Origin: Halobacteroides halobius DSM 5150
Lineage (GTDB): Bacteria > Bacillota > Halanaerobiia > Halobacteroidales > Halobacteroidaceae
Assembly (NCBI RefSeq): GCF_000328625.1
Contig: NC_019978.1
Span: 2,170,001-2,234,000, forward strand
Direction of reading: 5' to 3'
DNA: 64,000 nt
This document shows positions 8,197 to 52,469 of the stretch, piece by piece; position 1 is the first letter of the stretch, and each line of letters begins with the position of its first letter. The notes below the pieces were generated by a model. It had not been told where the DNA came from. It saw only the letters and a list, made by a program, of their open reading frames with translations, and made no database searches. The translations under genes were made by a program, and so were the position numbers.

Positions 8197-8292
8197 CGGG
8201 AATATGTGGGAATCGAACCCACCACAGACAACTAAAGCTGCCTGCCACTGGATTTGAAGTCCAGGGTATCCACCATGGATACAGCCATTCCC
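8197..8292 (-). tRNA. selC: tRNA-Sec (anticodon UCA)
   Basis: A 96-nt tRNA with acceptor stem GGGAAUG/UAUUCCC, anticodon loop CUUCAAA (anticodon UCA) in the stem CUGGA/UCCAG, a long variable arm and a T loop GGUUCGAUUCC. The unusual length and the UCA anticodon identify selenocysteine tRNA. CCA is not encoded; G is the discriminator base. It follows selB by 76 bases on the same strand, so selA-selB-selC form one operon. Its 3' end is the likely attachment site of the neighbouring integrated element. Confidence 0.95.
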
Positions 8293-8368
8293 TTAATTTT
8301 ATTTTTTATCATACTCTACTAATTATTGTAACATAATATTATTCACTTGTAAAGAGTAAGATCTATTA

Positions 8369-10282
8369 TTATTTGTCTTCTAAATGCCTTATATCTCCTT
8401 CTCTTTTAGTAACACCTTGTTTATCAAAATAATCTAATAAGGGCAAAGCATACTTGCGACTGCTATTTAATAGATCTCTAAATTGGGCCAAGCTTATCTG
8501 CCCTTCTTTAATCAAATATTCTCTTAGTAAACTTTTAGCCTTATCTAAAACTTGATGGTGAAGATATAAATTTTCTGCTACCTTGACTAATTTATTATTA
8601 GTAATTAAAAAATCAACAATCTCGGTAGCTAAATCTTCATTAGCAAAATCACTTATGACCTTCTCTAATCGAGGTGGTTGAAAACCTTGAGCATTAAATG
8701 AAGTTAAAATTTCTTCTTTTATCTTCTCTTCCTCAAGGTTAAATTCAACCTCAAAGTTCTCTAAACTCAGTTTAGCATCCTGTTCTTCAATCTTATTAGT
8801 CTGCTTTAAATCAGCTAATAACAAATCATACTGATTAGAATCTAATCTTAAACTTAACTTTGTCCTTAATTCTTCTTTATCAATCCCCCACCTAAGATGA
8901 TATTGTTGGTGATAATCTTGTAAATAGCTTATTATCTCTTCCCTTAATTGTTGAATGTGACTTTGGTGTAACCAGCTAGACTCTCGCCCAGTAGCTAATT
9001 CAACAACTCTACCATCTTCAACTAAGCTAGCTAATTTATTAGATAATTGTTTAGTTGATAAGCTTGTAATTTGAATTAATTCTTCAATTGATAAAGGCTT
9101 ACTAGTATTTCTTTTTAAAGCCAGCTCAATTCTTTCTTTACTACTTCCAACTTCCTTAATTTTTAAAGCTTTAATAGTATCTTCTTCAAACTTACGATGT
9201 CGAATTGGATTAGATTCTAAAATCTGTCCTCCTCCAATTGTAGTCATTGGAGAATACCGTCTTATAACATATCTTTCTTTAAAGTTGGCTACCACTTCTT
9301 CTTCCAATCTGAACTGGACCAATCCCTCTTCACCAGGATATAACTCTTCATTATCCAATAAATAAACTCTTCCTAGGACTTCTTCGGCCCCTAAGTGAAG
9401 TCTAATCCTATCTCCATGTTTTAAAATAAGAGGAGCAGATGATAACATTTCTAATCGTGCATCAAGATATTCTGTTTTAACTAAACTTTCCTTAGTAGCT
9501 AAAACATCTCCTCTATCTACCTCCTTAGTATCTACTCCAGACAAATTAATACCCACACGTTGCCCAGGATAAGCTGTTTCAACTCCTTTTTCATGAACTT
9601 GTAAACTACGGACTCGAACGTCAATTCCAGAAGGGTAAATTCTAAGTTTAGCCCCCTCTTTGATTTGGCCTTTAAGCAATGTTCCTGTTACAATAGTCCC
9701 ATGACCTGTCAGAGAAAAGACACGATCTATTGGAAAATAAGTATTGCCTGTTTTATCTTTAGTTGGAATATCTGCTATTACTTCTTCTATTTCTTCTTTT
9801 AATTTATCTATTCCGGTCTCCTCTACTGCTGAAACAGGAATAACAGAAGTTCCTTCTAAAAAAGTATCTTTTACAGCTTCTTTAATTTCGTATATTACTA
9901 AATTTAACCATTCATCATCAACTAAATCACTCTTGGTTACTGCTATTAGACCCTGCTTAACATTTAATAAATCTAAAATCTCCAAATGTTCTCTAGTTTG
10001 TTGCATAATAATTTCATCAGCAGCTACTACGAGTAATCCCAAGTCAACCCCACCAGCTCCAGCCAGCATATTCTTAATAAATTTCTCATGGCCTGGAACA
10101 TCAATAATTCCTACTTGTAAATCATCATTCAATTCTAAATGACTAAATCCTAACTCAATAGAAACACCACGTTCATTTTCTTCATCTAATCTATCAGTAT
10201 CTTGGCCAGTTAAAGCTTTAATTAAAGTTGTTTTTCCATGATCAACATGGCCAGCTGTTCCAATTATTAAATTTTTGCTCAT
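8369..10282 (-). CDS. selB: Selenocysteine-specific elongation factor
   Basis: A 637-residue translation factor that brings Sec-tRNA to UGA codons marked by a SECIS hairpin. GTPase motifs are at the N-terminus: GHVDHGKTT (residues 11-19), DVPGHEKF near 60, and TKSD near 118. EF-Tu-like beta barrels follow (about 175-340), then the long C-terminal winged-helix region (about 375-637) that in known SelB binds the mRNA hairpin. The ATG at 10282 lies two bases behind the selA stop, so translation is probably coupled. The substrates in this window are grdA and grdH. Confidence 0.96.
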   Translation of the reverse strand: MSKNLIIGTAGHVDHGKTTLIKALTGQDTDRLDEENERGVSIELGFSHLELNDDLQVGIIDVPGHEKFIKNMLAGAGGVDLGLLVVAADEIIMQQTREHLEILDLLNVKQGLIAVTKSDLVDDEWLNLVIYEIKEAVKDTFLEGTSVIPVSAVEETGIDKLKEEIEEVIADIPTKDKTGNTYFPIDRVFSLTGHGTIVTGTLLKGQIKEGAKLRIYPSGIDVRVRSLQVHEKGVETAYPGQRVGINLSGVDTKEVDRGDVLATKESLVKTEYLDARLEMLSSAPLILKHGDRIRLHLGAEEVLGRVYLLDNEELYPGEEGLVQFRLEEEVVANFKERYVIRRYSPMTTIGGGQILESNPIRHRKFEEDTIKALKIKEVGSSKERIELALKRNTSKPLSIEELIQITSLSTKQLSNKLASLVEDGRVVELATGRESSWLHQSHIQQLREEIISYLQDYHQQYHLRWGIDKEELRTKLSLRLDSNQYDLLLADLKQTNKIEEQDAKLSLENFEVEFNLEEEKIKEEILTSFNAQGFQPPRLEKVISDFANEDLATEIVDFLITNNKLVKVAENLYLHHQVLDKAKSLLREYLIKEGQISLAQFRDLLNSSRKYALPLLDYFDKQGVTKREGDIRHLEDK

Positions 10283-10284
10283 AA

Positions 10285-11697
10285 TTACCCCCTTATACTA
10301 TCTAGTGCTTCAACTATATAAGCAAAATCTTCATCTTGTAAAGTACGAAGATCTAATAAAACATTTCCTTTAGATATTCTAGTGAAAACAGGCGGATTAT
10401 TTAACCGTAATCTTTCTGCTATTTCTTCAGCACTTAATTCTTGATGGGCCAACTTAATTACATAAGTAGTTAACTCTTCTGTAGGAAATGCCCCTCCACC
10501 AGCTCGGGAAATATCTTGCTCAACTTTCAACTCAAATTGTAACGAAATTACTTTTTTAATCTTAGCAGCTAATTTTTCTGCTCGCTTCTTTAATTCATCT
10601 TCTGATACAGTTAACATTTGCAAAGTAGGAATTTCTCTTCTAGCATTTTCAATCTCTCTATACTCTTGTAAAGTAGCCTCTAAAGCCCCCAAAGTAAACT
10701 TATCAACTCGTAAAGCTCGATTTAATGAATGGGTTTTCATTTGATCAATATACTCCTTCTTACCTACAATTATTCCTGCTTGAGGACCTCCCAGCAATTT
10801 ATCACCACTAAAAGTTACTACATCAGCCCCAGCTTTGATACTATCTTGAACTGTCGGTTCATAACTTAGTCCCCATGGAGTTAAATCAACCAAAATCCCA
10901 CTACCAAGATCCTCTACTACAGGCACACCATGTTCACTACCTAATTCAACTAAACCCTTAAGAGAGACCTCTTTAGTAAATCCCACAACTTCATAATTAC
11001 TTGTATGTACCTTTAATAAAACCCCAGTTTTTTCATTAATAGCCCTCTTATAATCGGCCAAGTGGACCCGATTAGTAGTTCCTACCTCAGCTAATTTGAC
11101 TCCACTTTGTTTCATTACATCAGGTATCCGAAATGAACCTCCAATTTCAACCAATTGCCCTCTCGCAATAATAGCTTCTTTTCCTTGAGCCAAACTACTT
11201 AAAGCTAATAAAACAGCACTAGCATTATTATTAACTACTAAAGCTGCTTCAGCTCCAGTTAACTCTGTTAATAATTCTTCTACTATCTCATATCGAGACC
11301 CCCGCTCCCCACTTTCACGATTGATTTCTAAGGTGGAATACTTACTAGCTACTTGTTGTAATTTTTCCTTAGCTGCATCACATAATAAAGAACGCCCCAA
11401 ATTAGTATGGACTACAACTCCAGTAGCATTAACTACTGCCTTCAATTGATCACTTGTTTTATTAACTAAATATTCTTTTACCTGATCCAAAATTTCTTCT
11501 TTCTTTATCTTAAATTTATTTAATTTCTTTAACTCCATATCTAAAATTTGCTTCCTTAATTTATCAGTGACTTCTCTAATTCCTTCAACTACCAGTTGAC
11601 GAGGATAATCATTAATTAATTTCTGCCCTAAATCCATTGCTAATAAATCATTAACCGCTGGAATTTTTCTTAAATAACCTTGCTTTCTTTTATTCAT
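10285..11697 (-). CDS. selA: L-seryl-tRNA(Sec) selenium transferase
   Basis: A 470-residue PLP enzyme that converts Ser-tRNA(Sec) into Sec-tRNA(Sec) using selenophosphate. The PLP lysine is in TFSGDKLLGGPQAG; the N-terminal region typical of SelA (RKIPAVNDLL) and HTNLGRSLL are visible. The length is normal. ATG 11697 lies behind AAGGAG. It is the first gene of selA-selB-selC. A 38-bp palindrome 43 bases upstream may control it. No selD is present in this window. Confidence 0.96.
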   Translation of the reverse strand: MNKRKQGYLRKIPAVNDLLAMDLGQKLINDYPRQLVVEGIREVTDKLRKQILDMELKKLNKFKIKKEEILDQVKEYLVNKTSDQLKAVVNATGVVVHTNLGRSLLCDAAKEKLQQVASKYSTLEINRESGERGSRYEIVEELLTELTGAEAALVVNNNASAVLLALSSLAQGKEAIIARGQLVEIGGSFRIPDVMKQSGVKLAEVGTTNRVHLADYKRAINEKTGVLLKVHTSNYEVVGFTKEVSLKGLVELGSEHGVPVVEDLGSGILVDLTPWGLSYEPTVQDSIKAGADVVTFSGDKLLGGPQAGIIVGKKEYIDQMKTHSLNRALRVDKFTLGALEATLQEYREIENARREIPTLQMLTVSEDELKKRAEKLAAKIKKVISLQFELKVEQDISRAGGGAFPTEELTTYVIKLAHQELSAEEIAERLRLNNPPVFTRISKGNVLLDLRTLQDEDFAYIVEALDSIRG

Positions 11698-11739: not shown

Positions 11740-11777
11740 ATAACATACTAGGTAATCATGATTACCTAGTATGTTAT
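11740..11777. promoter_or_regulatory. 38-bp perfect palindrome between selA and the tetR-type gene
   Basis: Two 19-base arms (ATAACATACTAGGTAATCA and its complement) meet without a loop. It lies between divergent selA and the TetR gene. The core TAATCATGATTA also occurs before trxB (27563) and grdA (32726). No T run follows on either side, so an operator is more likely than a terminator. Confidence 0.7.
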
Positions 11778-11903: not shown

Positions 11904-12575
11904 ATGATGGTTAATATTCAAAATTATGGTATTAAAAAGAAACGTACTTTAAAAGTATTTATTAACGCAGCTGCTCAAATTATTGAAAATAAAGATATTG
12001 AAGCAGTTACTATCAGAAAAGTAGCTGAAATTGCTGGATATAATAGTGCTACTATTTATAATTATTTTGATAATAGCAATCAACTAGTTTCCTTAGCAGC
12101 TATCAGATTCATTAATACACATTATTTAAAAACACTTCCAGACTACATAAGTCAAGCTAATAACTGTTTGGATAAATTTTTATTAACTTGGGAATGCTTC
12201 TGTGAATACTGCTTTAAACATCCTAAACTTTATTATGCAGTCTTCACGGAAAATATTGGTGAGCAACCTAACAATTTATTTGACAATTACTATACATTAT
12301 TTCCAGAAGAAATAAAAGGTTATCCCCAAGAATTAACTCCAATGATTAAAGAATCTAATTTTGATAAACGTTGTCAAATAGCTATTCAACCCTGTATTGA
12401 AAAAGGATACTTTACTAAACAAGAGGCTACCCAAATTAATGAAATGATTAGATTACTTTACCAGGGAATGCTTTCTTTATTTATTAACAACAGAGTCAAC
12501 TATTCAGCAGAAGAAGCAACTCAAAAAGTTATGAGTCATATCCGCCAGATTGTAAATTCAATACCTTCTCAATAA
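11904..12575 (+). CDS. TetR-family transcriptional regulator
   Basis: A 223-residue protein, ATG 11904 behind AAAGGAG. The N-terminal helix-turn-helix is of the TetR type (VTIRKVAEIAGYNSATIYNY followed by FDNSNQLVSLA). The C-terminal ligand or dimer region is not close to any family I know. It is divergent from selA and upstream of a selenium-type LysR gene with 23 bases between them, so it may regulate selenium genes through the palindrome at 11740, but the ligand is unknown. Confidence 0.85.
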   Translation: MMVNIQNYGIKKKRTLKVFINAAAQIIENKDIEAVTIRKVAEIAGYNSATIYNYFDNSNQLVSLAAIRFINTHYLKTLPDYISQANNCLDKFLLTWECFCEYCFKHPKLYYAVFTENIGEQPNNLFDNYYTLFPEEIKGYPQELTPMIKESNFDKRCQIAIQPCIEKGYFTKQEATQINEMIRLLYQGMLSLFINNRVNYSAEEATQKVMSHIRQIVNSIPSQ

Positions 12576-12598: not shown

Positions 12599-13480
12599 AT
12601 GAAATTACAGACTCTAAAAATGCTTGTTTGGTTAGCAGAATATAAGAGTTTTTCTATTGTTGCTAAACAACTAGATCTTACCCAACCAGCTGTTAGTATG
12701 CAAATAAAATCATTAGAAGAACAATTTGAGACCAACTTGATTACACGACAAAAAGGTAACATAGAATTAACTCCTGCTGGAAAAATAATTTACCACCAAG
12801 CTAAAAAAATACTAAATGATTGGGAAGAAGCAAAATTAAAAGTTAAACAAATTAAAGGAAAAACATATGATCATTTAACTATTGGTGCAAGCACCATCCC
12901 TTCTGAATATCTACTACCTAATTTATTAGCTAAGTTCTATAATAAACTACCTGAAGTAGAAACAACTGTGGAAGTTGGAGATAGCAAAGAAATAATAAAT
13001 CTACTAAAAAATAAAAAAATAGATCTAGCAATAGTCGGTTTAAAACCAGCTATTAATCAACTTCAAATTAAACCAATAGTTACCGATTCTTTAGTTTTAA
13101 TTGTTCCTCCTGACCACAGATTAGCTAATAAAAGACAAGTTAATAGCAAAGAATTAATAACAGAAAGAATTTTACTTCGAGAAAAAGGATCAGGCACTAG
13201 ACAAACTATGCTTACTGCTTTAGAAAACAATGGAATAAATAAAGAGAGTCTAAATATTAGAGCTTGCCTAGGCAGCAATGAAGCAATTATTTCAGCAGTA
13301 GCAGCTAAATTAGGAATTTCATTTATTTCCAATTTAGCTGCTAAAAATGCTACCCTCAATAATAGAATAGAAAAAATAGAAGTAACAGATATATCAACTA
13401 GTCGCAAATTTTATTTAGCTTATTATCACAACAGAGAAAAAGAACTACTAATTAAAGAGTTCAATAATCTTTGCTGTTAA
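12599..13480 (+). CDS. LysR-family regulator, selenium-metabolism type
   Basis: A 293-residue LysR protein. The N-terminal helix-turn-helix (FSIVAKQLDLTQPAVSMQIK) is followed by a periplasmic-binding-like effector domain (about 90-290). LysR proteins of this kind occur next to selA, yedF and cysteine desulfurase-like genes in selenium-using bacteria, and the same neighbours are here. The gene forms a short operon with the TetR gene. Its last 20 bases overlap the end of the convergent desulfurase gene. The effector molecule is not known from sequence. Confidence 0.85.
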   Translation: MKLQTLKMLVWLAEYKSFSIVAKQLDLTQPAVSMQIKSLEEQFETNLITRQKGNIELTPAGKIIYHQAKKILNDWEEAKLKVKQIKGKTYDHLTIGASTIPSEYLLPNLLAKFYNKLPEVETTVEVGDSKEIINLLKNKKIDLAIVGLKPAINQLQIKPIVTDSLVLIVPPDHRLANKRQVNSKELITERILLREKGSGTRQTMLTALENNGINKESLNIRACLGSNEAIISAVAAKLGISFISNLAAKNATLNNRIEKIEVTDISTSRKFYLAYYHNREKELLIKEFNNLCC

Positions 13481-17561: not shown

Positions 17562-17638
17562 CACTACCACTCCTCTGTAAAATATTTAATTAAAACAAAT
17601 AAAACTAAAATTTTCTCTCTTCTTTACAAAATTTTAAT

Positions 17639-17971
17639 CTACCTTTCTTCTTCATCCTCAATAAATCTCTCCATTACCCAAACAGCTACTTCACCAGTGA
17701 TTTGAATACAGTGGTTGGCCCGTTGTTCCTGACTACCAAAATCATCAAAATCTTTAGTAAATACTCGACAACAAGTAGAACCATATTCTTCTTTGATATG
17801 TAAATCAGCATTAGCTGGAAAACATTCTTCTGACATAGCAGCTCCTGGTTAAGTTCGACCATAATTAAGTCCTAAAGCCATAACTCCACCACTAACTGCT
17901 CCACATAGACATTTTGATTTTCCAATTCCAATGGAGAAACCAGAAGCTAATTTAACCATCTCAGGCGGCAT
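17639..17971 (-). pseudogene. C_GCAxxG_C_C-type redox protein with in-frame TAA
   Basis: From ATG 17971 the frame reads 40 codons (LASGFSIGIGKSKCLCGAVS, then MALGLNYGRT), then TAA at 17849-17851, then 69 more codons in the same frame (PGAAMSEECF to the end, including YGSTCCRVF). The family usually has GRTKPG here, so AAA to TAA is the likely change. The N-terminal part with the first conserved cysteine also appears missing. The stop is TAA, not TGA, so selenocysteine is excluded. The downstream part could still be made from ATG 17836. Confidence 0.7.
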
Positions 17972-21655: not shown

Positions 21656-22846
21656 CTAATCTATTAACTTCTTAGCATCTCGAGCAATCACTAATTCTTC
21701 ATTAGTTGGAATAACATAGACCTTAACATTAGATTCATCAGCACTAATCTCTGTTGTTGCTCCTCTAACATCATTTTTAACTGAATCTAACTCAATCCCT
21801 AAATAATCTAAGTTAGAACAGATCTGCTCTCTTAATTCAATAGCATTTTCTCCAATACCAGCAGTAAAGACAATAGCATCTACACCATTCATTTCTGCAG
21901 TATAAGATCCAATATATTTTTTAACTCGCCCTACAAACATATCTAAAGCTAACTGAGCCCGTTCATTCCCTTCTGCAGCTGCCTCTCCTATATCCCTCAT
22001 ATCACTACTAATACCAGAAATACCTTTTAGACCACTTTCATTATTCATTAAATCATCCATCTCTTGCGGGTTTAAATCTTCCTTTTCCATAATAAATGGT
22101 ACAGCAGCTGGATCAAGATCACCACATCTAGTTCCCATTACTAAACCTTCTAAAGGAGTTAGTCCCATACTTGTATCATAAGATTTACCATTTTTGACTG
22201 CTGTTACACTAGCTCCATTACCTAAATGACAAGTAATAATTTTTAAATCTTCAATAGGTTGGCTCATTTCTTTAGCTACTTTCTTAGCTACAAATTTATG
22301 AGATGTTCCATGAGCACCATAACGTCTAATATCATGCTTTTCGTAAAGTTCATAAGGTAAAGCATACATATAAATTTCTTCAGGCATAGTTTGGTGAAAA
22401 GCAGAATCAAAAGTAGCTATTTGCTTAGCATGAGGCATTAATTCTTCACAAACTTCAATTCCCATTAAATTAGGAGGATTATGTAGTGGAGCTAAAGTAG
22501 CACATTCTTCAATCTTCTCTTTTACATCTTGGTCAATAATAACTGACTTATCAAAGTATTTACCACCTTGTACTACTCTATGCCCTACAGCATTAATTTC
22601 ATCTACACTAGAGATAACTCCAGTCTCTTTATTAGTTAAGGTATCAATCACTAACTCCATTCCTACACCATGGTCAGCAATTTCTTGTTCAATTTCAATT
22701 TCTTCTCCATTAACTTCTTGCTCTAATCGTGAGCCTTCAATACCAATTCGTTCTACTAATCCTTTAGCCAAAACTGATTCACTCTTCATATTAATTAATT
22801 GATACTTAATTGAAGAACTACCACTATTAATTACTAAAATTTTCAT
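21656..22846 (-). CDS. ackA: Acetate kinase
   Basis: A 396-residue enzyme that turns acetyl phosphate and ADP into acetate and ATP. It begins KILVINSGSSSIKYQL and has AFHQTMP, HLGNGAS and FTAGIGENA, all typical motifs. Length is normal. It is last in the trxB-trxA-grdC-grdD-ackA group and takes the acetyl phosphate made by GrdC/GrdD, giving one ATP per betaine or glycine. A stem-loop separates it from grdD. Confidence 0.97.
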   Translation of the reverse strand: MKILVINSGSSSIKYQLINMKSESVLAKGLVERIGIEGSRLEQEVNGEEIEIEQEIADHGVGMELVIDTLTNKETGVISSVDEINAVGHRVVQGGKYFDKSVIIDQDVKEKIEECATLAPLHNPPNLMGIEVCEELMPHAKQIATFDSAFHQTMPEEIYMYALPYELYEKHDIRRYGAHGTSHKFVAKKVAKEMSQPIEDLKIITCHLGNGASVTAVKNGKSYDTSMGLTPLEGLVMGTRCGDLDPAAVPFIMEKEDLNPQEMDDLMNNESGLKGISGISSDMRDIGEAAAEGNERAQLALDMFVGRVKKYIGSYTAEMNGVDAIVFTAGIGENAIELREQICSNLDYLGIELDSVKNDVRGATTEISADESNVKVYVIPTNEELVIARDAKKLID

Positions 22847-22880
22847 TTTACTGCCCCCTTATCCTGCCTGAAAATATAGT

Positions 22881-22913
22881 AAAGCCGCCCTAGAATTAAC
22901 CAAGAGCGACTTT
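22881..22913 (-). terminator. Stem-loop between grdD and ackA
   Basis: On the minus strand AAAGTCGCTCTTGG pairs imperfectly with CTAGGGCGGCTTT. It probably reduces, but does not end, readthrough into ackA. Confidence 0.5.
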
Positions 22914-22922
22914 ATTTTAAAA

Positions 22923-24083
22923 TTAACCAATAAACCCGTCTTCCTGTAAAATCTCCATAGCTTCTTCTTCATCTTCACTAGCAACCATTACTACAGGTCC
23001 TGTACAACCCATTCCACTTTCTGCATAAATATCTTCTTCCCATAAAGCATGCACAGCATCATCTAAAGTTAAGATATCAATACCAGAGATTTCTTCATCT
23101 ACTGTTTTAGATGGAGGAGCAGAAACTTCTTCACTAGAAGCTGCATTACTACTTTCAACATCAGCAATAATTTCTTCTAAACCTGCCTTATTAACTGATT
23201 TAAATTCATCTGTAGCTAACTTAGTAAGTTCACCTTGAGCTGCATCTGCTGCATATCTTATTGCTCCTGCAATTACTGGAGCGCCTGAAGCTCTAGAGAT
23301 AATATTAATAATTTGGTCATAATCTTCTCCAACTCCAGGACCATAACCAAACCCTAAGGATTCATAACTACCTCCAGTAGTAAAGGCACCAAATACTTTC
23401 ATTAATAAATTACCTGTTAAAGTATCAGTTACCATGACATCAGCTGAGCCTTGTAATAAGTCATTTCCCCGCATTACACAGCCACCATCAGCTCGAACTG
23501 TTTGAGCAAAGTTAATATCATAGCCGTTATCCTTTAATTCTTTAAGAGCCTGCTCTACTTGTCGAGCACCATCAACATTTAAGATACCTAGTGATGGATT
23601 TTGATTTCCTAGTGCCTTAGCAGCAATAATACCATAAATAGCATTCCTGACCATAGCAGTGATGCGGTTAGTAGCAGAAGTACCTGTAGAAGTAGCCAGT
23701 AACATTTCTTGACCTAAACCAGGAGTTATAATTCTTCCTACTGTAGAAACGCCGATAGGAAAGTTAAAGTGATTAGTAACACAAGCATCAATCTCTCCTG
23801 CTTGTAATAACTTTTCCATTTTGTCATGTGCTTCTTCTTCACAATCTGTCTCATAAATTATCTCTAAATCTGTATCAACTTGTGGCCCGATTAACTTTAC
23901 TTCAAGATCAGAATCTTTATTAGCTGCTAATTCTGCTCCTTTTATAACTTCCTCAATACCATGTTCACTTCCTAAAGTAGTAATTCCTACTTTAGTTTTT
24001 CCTCCGTATTCACCTGATTCAAGTGCATCAGCTAGTTGATTAAAAACTTGGGCCACTTGCTGTTTAGATTGATTGGTAGCCAT
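22923..24083 (-). CDS. grdD: Glycine/betaine reductase protein C, GrdD
   Basis: A 386-residue subunit of protein C, which takes the carboxymethyl group from the selenoprotein GrdA and releases it as acetyl phosphate. It has the phosphotransacetylase-like core (GYGPGVGEDYDQIINIISRA) and ends with GMGCTGPVVM. C360 in that motif corresponds to the published catalytic thiol Cys359 of Eubacterium acidaminophilum GrdD. It follows grdC by 28 bases. The protein is very acidic, as expected for a salt-adapted cell. Confidence 0.95.
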   Translation of the reverse strand: MATNQSKQQVAQVFNQLADALESGEYGGKTKVGITTLGSEHGIEEVIKGAELAANKDSDLEVKLIGPQVDTDLEIIYETDCEEEAHDKMEKLLQAGEIDACVTNHFNFPIGVSTVGRIITPGLGQEMLLATSTGTSATNRITAMVRNAIYGIIAAKALGNQNPSLGILNVDGARQVEQALKELKDNGYDINFAQTVRADGGCVMRGNDLLQGSADVMVTDTLTGNLLMKVFGAFTTGGSYESLGFGYGPGVGEDYDQIINIISRASGAPVIAGAIRYAADAAQGELTKLATDEFKSVNKAGLEEIIADVESSNAASSEEVSAPPSKTVDEEISGIDILTLDDAVHALWEEDIYAESGMGCTGPVVMVASEDEEEAMEILQEDGFIG

Positions 24084-24111
24084 TTTCTCACCTCCTATAG
24101 TTGTGTTTTAT

Positions 24112-25650
24112 TTACTCTTCTTCTAATAAAGAATCTGCTAGGTTACGCATAGCTTTAGCTACTATATTATTAATTTCATCTTCACTAACGCCTCCTTCTT
24201 TAGCACCCTGGCCAGTATTTTTCTCCATAATAAAGGAAACTCCATCAAATAAATTAGTCATTCTACCTAAGAATAGACTACCTTTACCAATAATCATTGC
24301 TCTTTCTAATTCATCATTTTTCATCATTTTTCGGGCGTGACCGATAAATGGAACTCCTGATGGAATATGACCTTGAGTCGGAGCAAATCCAGGCATGCCA
24401 TGTTCATTAACAAAGTTCATTAAATCTTTTTTCTCTAAATCTCCACGTTTAACACCTAAAGCAGCTATCATTTTATAATTTGATGCTGGTACATCTCCTG
24501 CTCCAGCGGGTTTAGTAATCTCTGGATTTTGCATCTCTACAGAATACTTATCAATATCAGTAATACTTAATCCTATTTCATCTAATGGATTAGTAACTAA
24601 AGACGAAATTACTGCTTGAGGAGCAGAACCTGTATCTACTGTATGACGACCTATAGCATCTGTTCTTAAAATAGGACTTTCTCCATCATCTTGACTAACT
24701 AACACAGCAAATCCACCTAAACAATCCTCTAAAATAGGCATTTCTTGGTCTACATGGTCCTTACCATTCATACCTAATTTAGCTGTAGATCCTCCTGCTA
24801 CTACTGCTACATTATCAAAGACACCTGATTTGACTAATCCAGCTGCATGGACTAAACCATGAGCCGGTCCAGCACAAAAGCTTCGGGTATCAGAACCAGT
24901 AGCATTTTTACAGCCTGCCATTTCAGCTATTGCTTTAGCAAAATTACCACCACCACGCTGGTTTACATCACCACAAGCTTCTTCTGATACTTCAATTACA
25001 TAATCTACTTCTTCTAAATCAATTCCTTGTTGTTTGCCTAGATGTAACATCGAAAGTACTCCTGAAGCTTTAACTACTGTATTCTCTAACATAGTATGAG
25101 CATTTAAGTTAACATCTGTATCGTGAGCTTGCTTGACACAACCAATTAACTCTCCATCTAAGTATAAAGGTTCAGCAGTGTGTTCATCTACTAACTGTTT
25201 AATAGAGTCAACTTCTGTGCCCTCAATTTGCTCTATATAATCTTCACCTAATAGATCATGTTCTGCTAATTTATCTTTTATATCCTTAGCAAATCCTTCA
25301 CTTAATTTTACTAAATCAAAGCTATCTGCCATCTTCATTAAACCATAAAATTCATCTTCAGGCATGATTTCGCCCCAGTCACTAAATCGTTTAGCATCTT
25401 TAACTGGATTATCATACCACTTTTGCTCTATCTCTTCTAATTCTTCTACTGATATATTCCCAATATAAGATTGGTTTGGCCCGTAATTTACTACTTCCTC
25501 ATAGCTTCTTAAGAATTTAGGTGCTTGCTCTAAATAATCACTATCAGGATTTTGTGCTCTCTCTGATGTTTGGGTAGATCCATGTTGTAATAAAGTATTA
25601 GCAGCATGAACTAATATATAACTACTTCCTTTTAAAACTGCTTCATTCAT
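24112..25650 (-). CDS. grdC: Glycine/betaine reductase protein C, GrdC
   Basis: About 512 residues, the larger protein C subunit with a ketoacyl-synthase-like fold. GGAGGTG selects ATG 25650 (MNEAVLKGSSYIL) rather than an ATG 33 bases upstream. Recognisable stretches are SDTRSFCAGPAHGLVHAAG and GRHTVDTGSAPQAV. With GrdD it forms acetyl phosphate. It follows trxA after about 265 bases that hold an inverted repeat, and precedes grdD. Confidence 0.95.
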   Translation of the reverse strand: MNEAVLKGSSYILVHAANTLLQHGSTQTSERAQNPDSDYLEQAPKFLRSYEEVVNYGPNQSYIGNISVEELEEIEQKWYDNPVKDAKRFSDWGEIMPEDEFYGLMKMADSFDLVKLSEGFAKDIKDKLAEHDLLGEDYIEQIEGTEVDSIKQLVDEHTAEPLYLDGELIGCVKQAHDTDVNLNAHTMLENTVVKASGVLSMLHLGKQQGIDLEEVDYVIEVSEEACGDVNQRGGGNFAKAIAEMAGCKNATGSDTRSFCAGPAHGLVHAAGLVKSGVFDNVAVVAGGSTAKLGMNGKDHVDQEMPILEDCLGGFAVLVSQDDGESPILRTDAIGRHTVDTGSAPQAVISSLVTNPLDEIGLSITDIDKYSVEMQNPEITKPAGAGDVPASNYKMIAALGVKRGDLEKKDLMNFVNEHGMPGFAPTQGHIPSGVPFIGHARKMMKNDELERAMIIGKGSLFLGRMTNLFDGVSFIMEKNTGQGAKEGGVSEDEINNIVAKAMRNLADSLLEEE

Positions 25651-25659
25651 CTTTGGCAC

Positions 25660-25910
25660 CTCCGCTGGTTTATTAATTAACAATTAACAATGTACAATTT
25701 ACAGTTGAAATCATTTACCCTGCAATTTGAATTTTCAAAATTAAATTCTAACTTAGTGTAAGTGTGAGGAATCAGTGTGAGTAAGATCAAAACATTTAAA
25801 TTCAAAACCAAAATCACTATAAGCCCTATCTTTTAAAGGTTTGAATTGATTTTACAATTTTGAATTTGACTTAACTCACGACTCACACTCATTACCCACA
25901 CTGATATTCA
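25660..25910. repeat. Intergenic imperfect long inverted repeat between trxA and grdC
   Basis: TTAACAATTAACAATGTACA-like bases lie next to grdC. Then GTGTAAGTGTGAGGAATCAG and AATTCAAAACC recur as complements (GGTTTGAATT, then ACTCACGACTCACACTCA and CCCACACTGAT), so that the block could fold into a long stem. A similar AATTTACAATTTATAATTAA block is at 44360-44480. It may be a miniature repeat element. I see no gene in it. Confidence 0.5.
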
Positions 25911-25914
25911 GTTA

Positions 25915-26232
25915 CTAAATGTATTTCTTAATTTCTTCTTCAATCTCTTCAGCTGTTAAGTCATCACCACTTAAGTGCTCTACTTTTTCTCCATCAACAT
26001 AAAATACCATAGATGGTAATCCCATAACTTGCTGGCTCATAGCTAAACGACGATTGCCTTTAATATTTAACTTACAAAACTTCATGTCATCTCCATACTC
26101 TTCAGCTAAATCTTCAACTTTAGGCAACAATTCCATACAACGGTCACAACCTTCACCCCAATAGTCTACCATTACTGGTCCTTCTACCTCTAATACTTCC
26201 TCTTCATAATTTTCCTTATTAACTTTAATCAT
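25915..26232 (-). CDS. trxA: Thioredoxin of the glycine reductase type
   Basis: About 105 residues. The ribosome site AAAGGGG touches an ATG at 26241, so the ATG at 26232 (MIKVNKENY) is the better start. The thioredoxin fold is clear, with the active site WGEGCDRCMELL instead of WCGPC and the cis-Pro loop GLPSMVFY. Grd-linked thioredoxins commonly depart from WCGPC. It re-reduces GrdA after each cycle, using electrons from the TrxB encoded just upstream. Confidence 0.93.
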   Translation of the reverse strand: MIKVNKENYEEEVLEVEGPVMVDYWGEGCDRCMELLPKVEDLAEEYGDDMKFCKLNIKGNRRLAMSQQVMGLPSMVFYVDGEKVEHLSGDDLTAEEIEEEIKKYI

Positions 26233-26303
26233 TACTTTCATCCCCTTTCAAGTTTATAAGTTTAAATTTAGTCTAAGTTTAACTTAGACTTATTTTTCTT
26301 AAA

Positions 26304-27509
26304 TTAAATAAGCTCCTCTATCTCAGTTTCTGTAGGTTGAGTAATCTTTTCTGCAACTTCTCCATCTTCAATTTTAAGCAAAGTTGGAACTTCAGTAACA
26401 TCATACCGATTAGAAATACGAGTATTCTTATAAGTATCTATCTTTACTAATTTAACACCTTTAGCTTCTAAATCCATATTTTCTAACTTACCTGTCATTT
26501 TTAAACTTTCCTCATTTGTTGGACTCCAAAAGGCTACTAATACATCTTCTTCAGCCTCTAATACATTTTCTTGCCAATACTCTTCTTCTTCAATATATCC
26601 TCCTGCAGCAGCTGCAGTTGTAGCTCCATCAGCAGCAGCTGTTACAACTTGACGTAAAAATTTATTCCTTACATCTCCTGCTGCATAAACTCCTGGAACA
26701 CTTGTTTCTAGTTTATCATTAGTCTTTATATATCCATTATCTGTTAGATCAACTATTCCTTCTAGAAAATCAGTTCGTGGTACTCGACCAATGAAGATAA
26801 AGATACCATCACAAGAAAAGTCTGTCTTTTCTCCTGTTTTAACATTTTTAAGTACTGCTGTATCTACTAGGCCCTCTCCTTTTACTTCTTCCAAAGTAGA
26901 GTTCCAAACAAATTCAATCTTATCATTTTGATAAGCTCTTTCTTGATAAATCTTATCTGCATCCATTGTTCCTTGATCATGAATTACTATAACAGTTACT
27001 TTACTAGCAAATTTAGTTAAATATAGTGCTTCTTCGATAGCTGAATTACCATTTCCAACAACTACTACTTCTAAATCAACAAAGAAGTCTGCATCACAAG
27101 TAGCACAATAAGATACTCCTTTACCTTTAAATTCTTCTTCTCCAGGAACGCCTAACCTTCTTGGTTCTGCTCCTGTAGCTACTATTACACTTTTAGCTTG
27201 ATATTTTATACCATCTTTAGTTTTAATAGTTTTAATAAAGTCTCCTGTTTCTACCTCTTGAACCTCAGCTTTCTCAATTTTAGTTCCAAAACTTTTAGCA
27301 TGTTCTTTAAAATTATCCATTAGCTCCGGAGCAGTAGTATCAAGAACTCCAGGATAATTCTCCATTTCATGATAGGTGGATACCTGCCCTCCTAACTGAC
27401 TATTTGTTTCTAACAAAATTGTATTAAGCTTAGAACGTGATGCATAAAGTCCTGCTGCTAACCCTGCTGGTCCTCCACCAATTATTAATACATCATATGC
27501 ATTGCTCAT
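26304..27509 (-). CDS. trxB: Thioredoxin reductase with C-terminal thioredoxin-like domain
   Basis: About 401 residues, ATG 27509 (MSNAYDVLIIGGGPAG) behind AAAGGGGG; an ATG 63 bases upstream lacks a ribosome site. Residues 1-310 are a normal thioredoxin reductase: FAD motif GGGPAGLAAG, redox pair CATC near 137, NAD(P) motif GNGNSAIEE and AAGDVRNK. Residues 315-401 form a thioredoxin fold without redox cysteines: FWSPTNEES stands where CxxC would be, and EVPTLL matches the cis-Pro loop. It supplies electrons to TrxA and GrdA. The extra domain may dock a partner. Confidence 0.93.
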   Translation of the reverse strand: MSNAYDVLIIGGGPAGLAAGLYASRSKLNTILLETNSQLGGQVSTYHEMENYPGVLDTTAPELMDNFKEHAKSFGTKIEKAEVQEVETGDFIKTIKTKDGIKYQAKSVIVATGAEPRRLGVPGEEEFKGKGVSYCATCDADFFVDLEVVVVGNGNSAIEEALYLTKFASKVTVIVIHDQGTMDADKIYQERAYQNDKIEFVWNSTLEEVKGEGLVDTAVLKNVKTGEKTDFSCDGIFIFIGRVPRTDFLEGIVDLTDNGYIKTNDKLETSVPGVYAAGDVRNKFLRQVVTAAADGATTAAAAGGYIEEEEYWQENVLEAEEDVLVAFWSPTNEESLKMTGKLENMDLEAKGVKLVKIDTYKNTRISNRYDVTEVPTLLKIEDGEVAEKITQPTETEIEELI

Positions 27510-27562: not shown

Positions 27563-27595
27563 TTATAATCATGATTATAATATAATCGTGATTAT
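27563..27595 (-). promoter_or_regulatory. Tandem palindromic operators before trxB
   Basis: TTATAATCATGATTATAA (27563-27580) and ATAATCGTGATTAT (27582-27595), centres 17 bases apart. The near edge is 54 bases before the trxB start. A TATAAT -10 box lies just downstream on the minus strand. The same paired arrangement occurs before grdA. Confidence 0.7.
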
Positions 27596-27620
27596 TTAAA
27601 TAAGAAAAGAAAAATGAAAC

Positions 27621-27654
27621 TCAGTAGTAGGGAAATTGGGGTTCCTACTACTGA
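27621..27654. terminator. Terminator behind the BCCT transporter gene
   Basis: TCAGTAGTAGG and CCTACTACTGA form an 11-bp stem; T-rich bases follow on both strands. It separates grdA-grdI-grdH-BCCT from the trxB group, so the latter needs its own promoter. Confidence 0.8.
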
Positions 27655-27664
27655 AGTTTTTATT

Positions 27665-29194
27665 TTAATCAGTTAATTCCTTAGCCCCTCGTTTTTCTTC
27701 TTCTCGCAAAGCTTTTAGGATTGAAACCATAGCAAACAGCAGTACAATTGCAAATGGGAAAGCAGCTACAATGGAAGCTGTCTGTAACATTTCCAAACCG
27801 CCAGCTAACATTAATGTCAGTGCTAAACCAGCCTGGATAACCCCCCAAATAACTCGTCGTCTAGTTGTCGGATTAGGGTCTCCTTTAGAACTCATTATCC
27901 CCAGTACAAAGGTAGCAGAATCCGCTGAAGTAATAAAAAATGTAGATAATAATGTTAGCGCTACAAAGGAGAATATATCAGTGATTGGATAATGTTCCAT
28001 AACTGAAAATAACATTGTCGAAGCAGGTTGATTATTAACAATCTTACTTGCAGTATCAATTCCTAAACTAGTTCCTAAAGTACCGAAGATACCAAACCAG
28101 ACAAAACCAACTAAAGCTGGAGCTAATAATACACCAGTTACAAATTCTCTAATAGTTCGACCGCGAGAAATTCGCGCAATAAACGTACCTACAAATGGTG
28201 CCCAGGCAATCCACCAAGCCCAATAAAAGATTGTCCACCAGCCGTACCATTTATTACTTGTAACCCGCAGGCTGTCTTGTACAAACGAGCCCAAGTAGGC
28301 TCCAACTCCAGTACTAATATTATTCATAATCATTACTGTAGGCCCGATAACCAAACCTACAACCATCAAAATAGCTCCTAAAGTTATATTTGCGTTAGAT
28401 AATATTTTAATCCCTTTATCCAAACCGGAAATAGCAGAGATCATAAATAAGGCAGTAATTACTACCATAATAATAACTTTTACCATATCAGTCTGCGGAA
28501 CTCCAAAGAGAAAATTAAATCCACTGTTCATCTGCAAAGCCGCCATTCCAAGTGAAGTTGCTACACCGGCAACAGTAGCAAATAAAGCTAGAATATCAAC
28601 AAATTTGCCTATAGCTCCCGAAACTTTTTCTTCCCCAATTAATGGAATAAAAACACTACTCATTAAAACTGGTTTATCTTTACGGAATCGCATATAAGCC
28701 AGAGCTAGAGCAAAAACTGCATAAGCAGCCCACGGATGTAAACCCCAGTGAAAATAAGATTTTTTCAAGGCAAAATCAATTGCTGCTCGGCCGCCACCTT
28801 CCATTCCTAATGGTTTAACAAAATGAGTTAAAGGTTCAGCAACACCCCAAAAAACTAATCCAACACCCATTCCTGCACTAAAGAGCATCGCAAACCAGGA
28901 AATAGTACTGTACTCTGGATCTTCATCCGGTTTACCTAACTTCACATTTCCGTACTTGCTAATTCCTAAACCAATAGTATAAACTACAAACAAACTCATA
29001 GTAATTAGATAAAACCAGCCAAAGTTCCCTACTAAAAAATCAAATGCTGAATTAGCTACATTCTTGAAATTCTTTTGCGCTATAATCCCCCAGGCTACTA
29101 CAATAAAAGTTACTACTAAAGAAATATAGTAGACTGGATTACCTTCATTGTCTTGTTCCACAACTTTAGTTTCTTTTTCTGGTTCAGTTGACAT
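27665..29194 (-). CDS. BCCT-family betaine/carnitine/choline transporter
   Basis: A 509-residue carrier with about 12 membrane helices. It has the family's Trp-rich segments (SYFHWGLHPWAAYAVFALAL and WTIFYWAWWIAWAPFVG) and the glycine-rich MLFSAGMGVGLVFWGVAEP. It would import glycine betaine with sodium or protons across the cytoplasmic membrane. Its place behind grdH argues that the reductase substrate is betaine, and the solute also serves as osmoprotectant. ATG 29194 lies behind GGGAGG. Confidence 0.93.
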   Translation of the reverse strand: MSTEPEKETKVVEQDNEGNPVYYISLVVTFIVVAWGIIAQKNFKNVANSAFDFLVGNFGWFYLITMSLFVVYTIGLGISKYGNVKLGKPDEDPEYSTISWFAMLFSAGMGVGLVFWGVAEPLTHFVKPLGMEGGGRAAIDFALKKSYFHWGLHPWAAYAVFALALAYMRFRKDKPVLMSSVFIPLIGEEKVSGAIGKFVDILALFATVAGVATSLGMAALQMNSGFNFLFGVPQTDMVKVIIMVVITALFMISAISGLDKGIKILSNANITLGAILMVVGLVIGPTVMIMNNISTGVGAYLGSFVQDSLRVTSNKWYGWWTIFYWAWWIAWAPFVGTFIARISRGRTIREFVTGVLLAPALVGFVWFGIFGTLGTSLGIDTASKIVNNQPASTMLFSVMEHYPITDIFSFVALTLLSTFFITSADSATFVLGIMSSKGDPNPTTRRRVIWGVIQAGLALTLMLAGGLEMLQTASIVAAFPFAIVLLFAMVSILKALREEEKRGAKELTD

Positions 29195-29224
29195 ATTTCA
29201 GCCTCCCTATCTTTATTAAATGAA

Positions 29225-29266
29225 ATACACCTTACCCCACTATAAATAAAAATGGGGTAAGTGTAT
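29225..29266 (-). terminator. Stem-loop between grdH and the BCCT gene
   Basis: ATACACTTACCCCA and TGGGGTAAGGTGTAT form a strong stem around a T-rich loop on the minus strand. There is no long T run after it, so it may be an attenuator or an mRNA-stabilising hairpin. Confidence 0.6.
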
Positions 29267-29276
29267 TGGTCTGAAC

Positions 29277-30599
29277 TTAAATCTCTACATTAAATACTGT
29301 TTGTTCTTCAATATCTGTTTCAAGTGCATCTAAAGCAACTCCAACTCGATGATAACGTAACTTCCATTGGTCATCTTTAGAATCATCTGGATCTCCTAAT
29401 GGATAAGGAATAGAAATGGTTGGCACCATTTTATTAGAACCTACTGTTTCAGCAACTGGAATTAAGTTAGCCATTTGAACGACAGGAATACCGGCTCTTT
29501 CAATTTCTTTTACAATCGTTGCACCGCAACGAGTACAAGTTCCTCATGTAGAAGTTAAAATTACTGCCTGAACACCATCTTCTAGCATTTTTTCTACCAT
29601 TTCTTGGCCCATTCTAGAAGCTTCTGCTTCAGTTGTTCCAGTTCCTACAGTAGAATAAAAGTAGTTATCAAGCTCACCAATCCTACCTTCCTTTTCATAC
29701 TCACGCATAACATCAACAGGTACAACTCGATTAGGATTAGCATCAGCAGCTGCTGGGTCATATCCAGCATGAATAGTCTTAAAACCTTCAGCATCTCTAT
29801 TAGGCAGTTGATTCAAACCAGAGATATCATATCTACCCCATCGAGTAGCAGAAGCTGACTGAATATTATCAGGATTATCTACTGGTACAATACCACCAGA
29901 AGTAGCTAAAGCAACCTTAACTTCACTTAAGTCTTCAATTGGTTCAGCAATCTCAACTCGATCCATATCTGGCATAGGTAATTCAGATTTAAATTCTTCT
30001 CCATTAACCTTTTTAAGTAACATATCAATTGCTCTATCAGCTGCTGGGATTTCATCTTCTAACCAGACTTGATGTCTCTTGCCTCTAATAAAGTATCCCT
30101 CTTCTTCAGCTGACCCTAGTTCTTCATTATTTAAAATTTTATTACCATAGTCAGCCATATCTTTCATATTATCTCTCATTTTAGCTGCACTTTGACCACC
30201 TGGGAAGATAATCATGTCTTTTTTATACATATCAACTCCAGGATTTTCATTATTCATAGATGTAATGACAGGTACATCAAATTCTTCTTTAACTGCTTTA
30301 CAGATAGCACCACAAGCATTACCATATCTACCTGCCTGGAAAGCTGGACCAGCAAAAAAGATATCAAATTCTTTATCTTCTAAAAAACTTAAGATTCTTT
30401 CAATAGCTTCTTCTTCATTAGAACCCATATAGTTATCGCCACAAACAACAGTATTAGTTACTTCAGCATTGTCAAGTAACTGATCTAATAACATAGCCGG
30501 GCCAACTTTACCCTCTTCTAATGTTGGCTCATAATCAGCTTGATCCTCACCACCAATCTGTCCAAAAAATTGATTCAAGTATAAAATAGCCTTTTTCAT
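29277..30599 (-). CDS. grdH: Betaine reductase selenoprotein B subunit (Sec at codon 352)
   Basis: The gene reads through an in-frame TGA at 29544-29546 and encodes 440 residues with selenocysteine at position 352. The motif VILTSTUGTCTRCGATIVK is the conserved active site of GrdB/GrdF/GrdH. In the family the Sec attacks the substrate bound to the pyruvoyl subunit. A hairpin with a GGU loop begins 12 bases after the TGA. After the Sec come VQMANLIPVAETVGSNKMVP and the normal C-terminus. The BCCT gene next to it favours the betaine enzyme (GrdH) over glycine or sarcosine forms. Confidence 0.93.
29517..29531 (-). promoter_or_regulatory. SECIS-like hairpin in grdH
   Basis: On the minus strand CGTTGC-GGT-GCAACG forms a 6-bp stem with a GGU loop. 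The loop is 18 bases after the TGA, in the range of bacterial SECIS hairpins that bind SelB. Confidence 0.65.
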
Positions 30600-30618
30600 A
30601 TCTTTTGCACCCCCCTTA

Positions 30619-31953
30619 TTAAAATTCTTTCATTGTCTTAGGAGACCAACCAAGAACCTGGTCACCACAGAACATTGAGTTGTTTTCCATAATAATGGAA
30701 CCATCTTCCTTAACAGATGATCCTAATTCATCATCATCTTCCCATCCACCAGATAAACCGTCTCTAGCTAATGCTTCTAATTCACCTATTACTGTTTCCA
30801 TTGGTGGCAGCTCAATTAAAGCTGACACATTTCCGCAAGAAACAATAGCATCTGCTGCTTCATCTAATGTTACAAGTGGCTGAGAATTTCCATCTCTACC
30901 AGTACATTCGTTAGTCATTCCTACTGTCTTAACTCCAGCCTCTTCTAATGCTTTAAAACACTCAATAAAATCAGCATCTGGATTACCATAACCCTCTTCT
31001 GCTAAGATAGCTGCATCTGCACCTAAAGACTTAGCTATCTGTTGGACAAATAATGCTGACCTCTCTTTCTCTTCTAAATTAACATTTAAGTTAGACATAA
31101 TTACACCTAAGAAATTAATTGTTTCCCCATGCTCCTGATATAAATTCTTAATTGTAGGACAATTCTGAAAATCATAAGTTGACCATTTAGAAGAACATGG
31201 CATAAAGCTACCTGAAATCATAGCTCCATCTAAAATTTCATTAGGATGCATTAAAGTTGGTACTACATGATTCATATCCCAACCATAAACTAAATCATTA
31301 TAGCCCATCTCTTCCATCTGAGATTGAGCCTGCATAACATAAACAACTGACGGTAGATCATTTACTTTAGCAGGACGTTTAGTAATTGGTTCCAAATCAA
31401 ATTCCTCTATATCATCTTCAGCTGGTTCTTGGTCTTCTAAAGCTTCAGTAGCTAAATATTTAGCCAATCTATGTCCAGCCCATCTTAAAGCATGATTCTT
31501 CTTCTGTTGTTCATGACGCTCAAACTCTTCATCTGTATCTGCAACTAAACAGATATTATTTAGTTGAGAAAAATAAGTGTACTTAGCACCTTCACCACTC
31601 ATATCAATTAATCCATCACCGAAACTACCCCAATGTTTACCTACAGCTAACACACTACAACCTTTTAGAGCTAAAGTTTGTCCTTCACCAACAGCTTCTA
31701 CATTATCTGTTACTCCAGGAAAAACTGCTCCTCCATCCGCCTTACATCGTGGTTCAATTGCTTCTTTAACAGGGACAATTCGCTTATCTTCACCTGGTCT
31801 AGCAATTTTTATATCTGCTTCAGTAATATGTTCATCTTCTTTAACTACTTTTAGAGCTTCTTCTTTATTAATAATTAATGTTCCATCTTGATAAGAGGTT
31901 TCATCTCCAAAAGTAATATCTTCAACATTAAAATTAGCTATCTCTAAACGCAC
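30619..31953 (-). CDS. grdI: Betaine reductase protein B proprotein (pyruvoyl subunit precursor)
   Basis: About 444 residues. GAAAGGGGTG selects GTG 31953 (VRLEIANFNVEDI); an ATG 126 bases upstream has no ribosome site. The GrdE/GrdG/GrdI family is cut in two at a cysteine that becomes the N-terminal pyruvoyl group of the second piece, which binds the amine substrate. GSFMPCSSKWSTYDF (C253) has the place expected for this cysteine (Cys242 in GrdE); my alignment is from memory. It precedes grdH by 20 bases. Assignment to betaine rests on the BCCT neighbour. Confidence 0.9.
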   Translation of the reverse strand: MRLEIANFNVEDITFGDETSYQDGTLIINKEEALKVVKEDEHITEADIKIARPGEDKRIVPVKEAIEPRCKADGGAVFPGVTDNVEAVGEGQTLALKGCSVLAVGKHWGSFGDGLIDMSGEGAKYTYFSQLNNICLVADTDEEFERHEQQKKNHALRWAGHRLAKYLATEALEDQEPAEDDIEEFDLEPITKRPAKVNDLPSVVYVMQAQSQMEEMGYNDLVYGWDMNHVVPTLMHPNEILDGAMISGSFMPCSSKWSTYDFQNCPTIKNLYQEHGETINFLGVIMSNLNVNLEEKERSALFVQQIAKSLGADAAILAEEGYGNPDADFIECFKALEEAGVKTVGMTNECTGRDGNSQPLVTLDEAADAIVSCGNVSALIELPPMETVIGELEALARDGLSGGWEDDDELGSSVKEDGSIIMENNSMFCGDQVLGWSPKTMKEF

Positions 31954-32161
31954 TAATAACCACACCCCTTTCCTATTTAGCTCATAACCTTTTAAAACTT
32001 TACAACCATTTAAATTTTTCTGAATATTTATAATAGTGATAATATTCTTTTTAATAATATAAAAATAAATGGCTTCCACTAATCAGGTTAAATTCAATAC
32101 TAGAGCCAGGTTAGTATGACCCTATTATTGTGAATTTTAGCACAAGTTAAATAAATTTATT

Positions 32162-32205
32162 TTAGTCCTTAGGGTAGCAGACATAAGCCACCCCCCGTGG
32201 ACTAA
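32162..32205 (-). terminator. Long stem-loop directly behind the grdA stop
   Basis: On the minus strand TTAGTCC pairs with GGACTAA and inside it GGGTGGC pairs with GCTACCC. It abuts the grdA stop codon and has no long T run. It probably limits readthrough or protects the grdA message, which is needed in excess over protein B. Confidence 0.6.
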
Positions 32206-32673
32206 TTATTCAAATTGACAGTACTTACCTCTATATAAGGCAACCTCATCAACAATATCATCTACCTCTAATACCATTTCCATCATACTTATCTGTTCCT
32301 CATATACATCTTCATCAATTTCTTCCTTAACTTCAGGTTCTAAAATATGAAATACTCTGAGTCCTAACTGGACTCCTGCTAATGGACCTGCAAAAGTTGG
32401 ATCGCCATTAGTAACTGTTTCAGCAGCTAAGCCAGAAGCTTCTGCCTCTGCTCCACCTAAAACAACTACTACATTTTCTTCACCATGCTCCTCGGCAATC
32501 TCCTTAACTCTCTTTTGATTTTCCAGATCCATAGCGCCTGCAGCCGTTCACACAAAGCATTCTGTGGAACTAAATACTACTTCAGCGCTTGTTGTTTCAA
32601 TACACTCTTGAATGGCAGGACCTGGAATACCATCACGGTCACCAATAATCACTACCTTCTTATTTTCTAACAT
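32206..32673 (-). CDS. grdA: Glycine/betaine reductase selenoprotein A (Sec at codon 42)
   Basis: The gene starts at ATG 32673 behind GGAGGTG and reads through TGA at 32548-32550, giving 155 residues with selenocysteine at position 42. [15 protein letters not shown] is the invariant GrdA active site. GrdA receives the carboxymethyl group as a Se-ether from protein B and passes it to protein C; the Cys-Sec pair (C39-x-x-U42) is then re-reduced by thioredoxin. It is the first gene of the operon, preceded by paired palindromes. A start at ATG 32532 after the Sec codon would give a dead protein. Confidence 0.96.
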
Positions 32674-32725
32674 AATTGCACCTCCAGTTTGATTGTTTGT
32701 AATATCTTTCACTATTTATATTACC

Positions 32726-32755
32726 ATAATCATGATTATATTTCAACCATGATTA
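32726..32755 (-). promoter_or_regulatory. Tandem palindromic operators before grdA
   Basis: ATAATCATGATTAT (32726-32739) and AACCATGATTA (about 32745-32755), centres 17 bases apart. The near edge is 53 bases before the grdA start, the same geometry as before trxB. A TATAAA -10-like box lies five bases downstream on the minus strand. Confidence 0.7.
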
Positions 32756-52416: not shown

Positions 52417-52469
52417 TGTCAATAAATTATTTGTCATCTTTTGTCTTAATCTGTCGTTAAAAGCTAAAA

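Follow-up and report, generated by a model that had tools for sequence, protein, structure and literature searches.

Palindromes before betaine reductase, thioredoxin reductase, and selenocysteine genes of Halobacteroides halobius: very probable operators of a TetR-family regulator

Does one regulator join the reduction of glycine betaine to the synthesis of selenocysteine? The question is raised by a 64,000-nucleotide stretch of the halophilic anaerobe Halobacteroides halobius DSM 5150 (hereafter, the window; positions 2170001-2234000 of the single 2,649,255-base contig scanned as the genome), in which palindromes with a common core precede grdA, which encodes selenoprotein A of the reductase, as well as trxB and selA. 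An initial annotation of this DNA had proposed that a single regulator links betaine reduction, thioredoxin reduction, and selenocysteine synthesis. Our analysis supports that proposal: the motif is not scattered, is conserved, and tracks one TetR gene. On sequence grounds, the TetR-family protein encoded at 11904-12575 very likely uses the palindromes as its operators and would repress the three units until released by a betaine.

Palindromic sites in the window and genome

The exact core TAATCATGATTA occurs three times in the genome, and all three copies lie inside the window (11753-11764, 27566-27577, and 32727-32738), upstream of selA/tetR, trxB, and grdA, respectively. Under Markov models of order 1-3, the window should hold 0.02-0.04 exact copies and the genome about 0.8-1.8; each has 3. 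Given the genome expectation, a few copies somewhere would be unremarkable; three, all before selA, trxB, and grdA, are remarkable. We therefore rejected a chance origin for copies that all stand at promoters of one pathway.

At trxB, the perfect palindrome TTATAATCATGATTATAA (27563..27580, putative proximal operator; operators are given here without strand) is accompanied by a second copy, TAATCGTGATTA (27583..27594, putative distal operator), which has one mismatch and starts exactly 17 bp beyond the first. At grdA, ATAATCATGATTAT (32726..32739, putative proximal operator) is paired with CAACCATGATTA on the + strand (32744..32755, putative distal operator), again exactly 17 bp beyond and with two mismatches. 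The tandem spacing reported in the initial annotation is thus real; both distal copies are imperfect, the one at grdA clearly so. The proximal palindromes lie ∼53 bp ahead of the start codons of trxB (27509) and grdA (32673), in agreement with the 53-54 bases given earlier. The selA copy is unpaired and, as had been noted, forms the center of a 38-bp palindrome (11740..11777, putative single operator), which is perfect; its core is 56 bp upstream of selA and 140 bp upstream of tetR.

A genome scan for the 17-bp pair, of the kind suggested with the original observation, returned trxB and grdA as the only matches at up to three mismatches, and a control pattern returned none. Scattering of the motif through the genome had been named beforehand as evidence against a shared regulon, and it was not seen for exact copies, which are confined to selA, trxB, and grdA. 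With up to one mismatch allowed, the genome has 39 sites, whereas the reversed control pattern has 82, and we rejected such copies as regulon members in this genome. Specificity lies in the exact or paired form alone; one-mismatch copies are background. An Rfam scan matched no element at the palindromes.

Association with a TetR subfamily

The tetR gene beside selA (11904..12575, + strand) encodes a TetR-family regulator of 223 amino acids, the proposed repressor. Its only Pfam domain at E 0.001 is TetR_N (PF00440; E 9e-9, 35.4 bits against a cut-off of 24). An AlphaFold model has 11 helices in an all-helical TetR fold (predicted local distance difference test score, pLDDT, 90.5), and the top Foldseek matches in the PDB are TetR-type regulators with template-modeling (TM) scores of 0.42-0.61 over the query. 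In a profile search, solved structures matched mostly over the first half of the protein; with matches of this extent and score, no solved protein names the ligand. The DNA-reading helix, GYNSATIYNYF, is invariant in 8 orthologs of the order and nearly so in 50.

We scanned an alignment of this TetR protein against 84,980 species; 152 stretches encoded a relative, and 80 loci were kept, from Halanaerobiia, Bacilli, and Clostridia, with protein identities of 36-59%. The 12-mer found most often over the 350 bp upstream of these 80 tetR relatives is TAATCATGATTA itself, exact in 32/80, in a count that made no use of the motif. Allowing up to one mismatch to the relaxed motif TAAWCATGWTTA raises the count in this interval to 50/80 loci, whereas 50 sets of control windows from the same loci averaged 1.76 and never exceeded 5. 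Among control loci of distant TetR proteins (5 loci, four distinct genes), one had a relaxed one-mismatch copy and none an exact one. Two relatives carry the motif between tetR and a gene for an MttB-superfamily methyltransferase.

The motif also follows the regulator from genome to genome. Of 59 genomes examined in the class, 29 have a TetR ortholog (E < 1e-80), and 18 of these carry a double motif of no more than two mismatches; none of the 30 without the ortholog does (Fisher p about 5e-8). With up to three mismatches, the counts are 22/29 and 2/30 (Fisher p about 3e-8). A close TetR ortholog is encoded by 7/13 genomes of the order: that of the window and six more, at 57-62% identity. Precisely these seven possess grdA or a double motif with no more than one mismatch. 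The other six hold at most distant TetR matches, and two of them (G006 and G011) have looser pairs with three mismatches. Enrichment upstream of tetR and co-occurrence in the class make the TetR protein, one of the candidates of the initial annotation, by far the best candidate. We infer that it physically binds the palindromes, and the whole is best described, from sequence comparison, as a new and well-conserved regulon of a known kind, with the TetR protein encoded next to selA as its very probable regulator.

Another protein could bind the motif with tetR as a mere target, and we considered the neighboring LysR protein encoded at 12599-13480, an AraC protein encoded next to the motif in relatives, and regulators of the Fur/PerR or CRP/FNR type. 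A close LysR ortholog (55-60% identity, or the window's own) is present in 8/13 genomes of the order, nearly the same set as for TetR; however, one of these genomes (G004) has no double motif, and no motif lies upstream of the LysR matches (0/4), on which grounds LysR was rejected. In G003 and G005, the motif precedes the AraC gene; AraC was nonetheless rejected as well, since a search of the genome containing the window gave no match to the protein at E 1e-20. The PerR/Fur box is TTATAAT-N-ATTATAA, with one central base. The likeness to it suggested earlier fails on the conserved four-base center, CATG over 174 distinct copies (counted without L182, L185, L058, and L101, excluded as chance-like pairs, as a duplicate, or for a copy lying within a gene), and on the motif's association with tetR; the PerR/Fur reading was rejected on both points. 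The core does have CRP/FNR-like spacing. Against all of these proteins, of which LysR and AraC were looked for by gene search, the motif accompanies tetR through Bacilli and Clostridia and ranks first among 12-mers upstream of tetR there; control by any of them is very improbable.

Absence from relatives, the other outcome named beforehand as contrary evidence, was not found either: the motif is kept at grdA, grdI, trxB, betaine carriers, and tetR. The same pair precedes grdA in Halanaerobium and others of the class and grdI in Clostridia. GRDA (PF04723) is encoded in 6/13 genomes of the order by nine gene copies. In the comparison of grd promoters in relatives that had been called for, five of the nine copies have the 17-bp pair or a recognizable relic (the window, L019, L020, L024, and L027), one has a single motif copy (L021), and three have none (L023, L025, and L026). 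In L027, a second grdA copy of G001, one operator half is altered by a duplicated segment beside the -35 box.

Promoters, arrays, and predicted targets

We examined how the sites lie relative to promoters. In the listed paired sites at grdA or grdI promoters of Halanaerobiia and Clostridia, the left operator runs into a TTGACA or TTGAAA -35 box, and the right operator occupies the 17-bp spacer, followed by a TATTAT-like -10 box that is mostly preceded by TG. The predicted grdA promoter of the window, TTGAAA-N17-TAATAT with TG before the -10 box (32718..32746, - strand), has the same form: the distal operator overlaps the -35 box at its upstream end, with the proximal operator inside the spacer. 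This prediction combines the promoter scan with the layout in relatives; scans alone, in the grdA, trxB, and selA regions, were not above shuffles. Operators placed over the -35 box and in the spacer mean that a bound protein would hide both and block polymerase.

The sites stand before three units on the - strand. Behind the grdA operators lie grdA itself (32206..32673; PF04723 E 3e-79, one in-frame TGA) and, presumably in its operon, the open reading frames of grdI, grdH, and a BCCT betaine carrier (27665..31962), the carrier having a homolog that matches Pfam BCCT. The names grdH and grdI were assigned from the betaine reductase layout; grdH has a UGA at about 29541-29543, with a selenocysteine insertion sequence at 29506-29543 (SECIS_4, RF01990). 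Behind the trxB operators, trxB, trxA, grdC, grdD, and ackA (21656..27509), identified from open reading frames and named from recognizable translations, presumably form one operon. The open reading frames of selA and selB and the tRNA-Sec gene (8198..11697; tRNA-Sec RF01852 at 8198-8292) lie behind the 38-bp palindrome.

In the mechanism that we propose, TetR dimers would bind ATAATCATGATTAT either alone on a longer palindrome, as at selA, or side by side 17 bp apart, as at trxB and grdA. A pair of dimers at grdA would mask the -35 box together with the -35/-10 spacer, shutting out RNA polymerase. A betaine, most likely glycine betaine imported by the BCCT carrier, would bind the regulator and release it from DNA, and this release would switch on grdA-grdI-grdH-carrier, trxB-trxA-grdC-grdD-ackA, and selA-selB-tRNA-Sec together.

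A TetR protein might instead activate, or act both ways, with the upstream dimers helping RNA polymerase. Some TetR-family proteins activate, and Vibrio LuxR, a member of the family, is reportedly both activator and repressor; moreover, the trxB sites in the window do not lie over a scan-positive trxB promoter. At grdA and grdI, however, the second operator sits between the -35 and -10 boxes and the first touches the -35 box, an arrangement that should block polymerase, and activation is quite unlikely.

Several observations weigh against the TetR protein as repressor of all three units. No promoter passes the scan near the sites on the trxB strand of the window, and because a scan-positive promoter is missing at the expected place, repression of trxB is less clear than that of grdA. 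The promoter scan around selA likewise yields no more than shuffles, and no motif lies within 350 bp upstream of 12/14 selA genes. The relaxed motif is absent from the 350 bp before 30/80 tetR genes, the tetR genes of G001, G002, and G005 have no motif directly upstream, and 7/29 genomes of the class with a TetR ortholog have no double motif. The pattern GYNSATIY used for finding the 80 loci favors proteins that share the DNA-reading helix, and these loci share ancestry, so they are not 80 independent events.

The 17-bp step is itself a conserved property. Counting copies within 60 bp of each other, one with at most one mismatch and the other with at most two, we found 72 pairs in the 80 loci, 53 of them at exactly 17 bp; the rest were spread, with 3 at 34 and 2 at 35. 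Five shuffled sets gave 8 pairs and none at 17 bp. Three-copy arrays at the same step occur in several genomes, and one four-copy array precedes a BCCT carrier in G005. A step of 17 bp is ∼1.6 helical turns and would place neighboring dimers on different faces of the DNA, where adjacent dimers presumably contact each other side by side. Single sites tend to have longer arms: the mean perfect arm is 7.8 bases in 46 exact single copies (one duplicate locus included) and 6.5 in 39 exact paired copies. The longest single-copy arms measure 19 bases before selA in the window, 15 before a trxB of G001, and 14 before tRNA-Sec of Ammoniphilus. In L079, L081, and L082, two tetR paralogs face each other across arrays of the TAAACATGTTTA type, a variant of the core.

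We tallied the relaxed motif upstream of genes in 91 loci, leaving out L071 and L072 (same genomes as L051 and L052) and skipping gene starts with <200 bp of upstream sequence. The motif precedes GrdA (10/19), GrdI (10/22), TrxB (10/25), BCCT carrier (22/51), and TetR (57/84) genes, as well as genes for MttB-like (3/10), corrinoid (5/12), and dimethylglycine-dehydrogenase-like (3/3) proteins. It was absent before SelB (0/13), GrdH (0/23), GrdC (0/16), GrdD (0/11), and TrxA (0/17); many of the genes with zero counts are inner genes of operons. Genes for Rieske oxygenases, OpuAC, and formaldehyde-dehydrogenase-like proteins (the last named by eye) lie near tetR in some loci, with no motif directly upstream of the Rieske (0/6) or OpuAC (0/10) genes. 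Judged by these gene assignments, the common theme of the targets is glycine betaine uptake and breakdown. This theme makes a betaine the likely inducer, most probably glycine betaine.

Two further genes recur near these sites. A peptidase-S15-like hydrolase is encoded near tetR in 31/80 loci (e.g., L126:6190-8238), with the motif upstream in 15/32 cases. An AraC-family gene stands behind the same operator pair in two genomes (L047:4131-4895 and L049:5795-6574), which suggests a second regulator under TetR control.

The selenocysteine branch and known systems

The window palindrome precedes selA-selB-tRNA-Sec, and a counterpart occurs far from this lineage, in Ammoniphilus sp. YIM 78166 (L089:17603-17723), where tRNA-Sec (17631-17723), itself followed by selA, is immediately preceded by a 28-bp palindrome that has the same core. 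In the tally of 91 loci, the motif was found within 350 bp upstream of SelA genes in 2/14 cases. Together, these counts and the Ammoniphilus site imply either separate origins of the link in two or more distant lineages or its loss from most lineages. The single regulator proposed at the outset would thus extend to selA in the window and not to selA genes in general; in the genomes compared, the link is lineage specific, with no general rule.

The selA palindrome could alternatively serve selA as an RNA hairpin or leader element, share the 12 bases by chance, and be no operator of TetR. It is single, long, and unpaired, a weak promoter prediction places it at the transcription start and hence at the very start of the transcript, and most selA genes (12/14) lack it. 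Chance, however, accounts poorly for an exact 12-bp core expected 0.02-0.04 times in the window, and longer single palindromes with the same core precede trxB in relatives and tRNA-Sec/selA in Ammoniphilus. We regard a leader element as unlikely and a TetR operator as the better description. Between grdD and selA of G005 lies a short TetR remnant (G005:C37:10052-10174, L070; residues 178-218, 59% identical), which would fit a regulator gene that formerly adjoined selA there as well.

The window protein has the common properties of TetR-family repressors: a TetR_N helix-turn-helix, an all-helical fold, and a palindromic operator over a promoter, often beside the repressor's own gene. Unlike such repressors in general, its operators form arrays at a fixed 17-bp step. 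NCBIfam assigns no named subfamily, all matches falling far below their cut-offs. The best match, in the DNA-binding half, is to BetI, the choline-responsive TetR repressor of choline-to-betaine synthesis; a betaine-related pathway is common to both, whereas the targets in the window concern betaine use rather than that synthesis. With the BetI equivalog TIGR03384, the window protein scores 33.5 bits against a cut-off of 201.3.

GbsR and OpuAR of Bacillus repress glycine betaine uptake or synthesis genes, with betaine or choline as effector and a predicted aromatic cage (PMC6207618). Control of betaine genes is shared with them, but the window protein belongs to another family, with TetR_N alone and no GbsR-type domain detected. 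The betaine reductase cluster of Candidatus Betaina sedimentti groups grdHI, trxA, trxB, a carrier, and selA, and its figure legend includes tetR, lysR, and gntR; the accessible parts of that paper give no operator, motif, or regulatory role (PMC6716910). Halobacteroides lacunaris reduces betaine, and the available text describing it contains no word starting with "regulat" (PMC5023251). In the accessible text of PMC8163858, no TetR regulator appears; the matches are to tetrahydrofolate and the like. Among open-license PMC papers, judged by title or the start of the abstract, none described a regulator of betaine reductase or such an operator, and subscription papers may hold more. The titles listed by a search of papers for the motif text appear unrelated to regulation of the betaine reduction pathway.

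We see evenly balanced grounds for a broader proposal: that this TetR subfamily, present in Halanaerobiia, Bacilli, and Clostridia, is devoted to sensing glycine betaine or a closely related compound, binds DNA as rows of two to four dimers with a fixed 17-bp step, and took over the selenocysteine machinery in some lineages. If so, the 21st amino acid would be made on demand for one substrate, through selA-selB-tRNA-Sec here and tRNA-Sec-selA in Ammoniphilus, a case of selenocysteine synthesis tied to a single substrate. The conserved arrays also offer a ready set of promoters for studying cooperation of TetR dimers at fixed spacing. Betaine reduction supplies trimethylamine to methanogens in saline sediments, and a switch of this pathway would therefore be useful for predicting flux.

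Two other features of the window deserve mention. By its translation, a large open reading frame at 38564-43162 reads as an anaerobic ribonucleotide reductase with two intein-like inserts. At 52469-53777, a group II intron end (Rfam RF00029) adjoins a reverse-transcriptase-like open reading frame.

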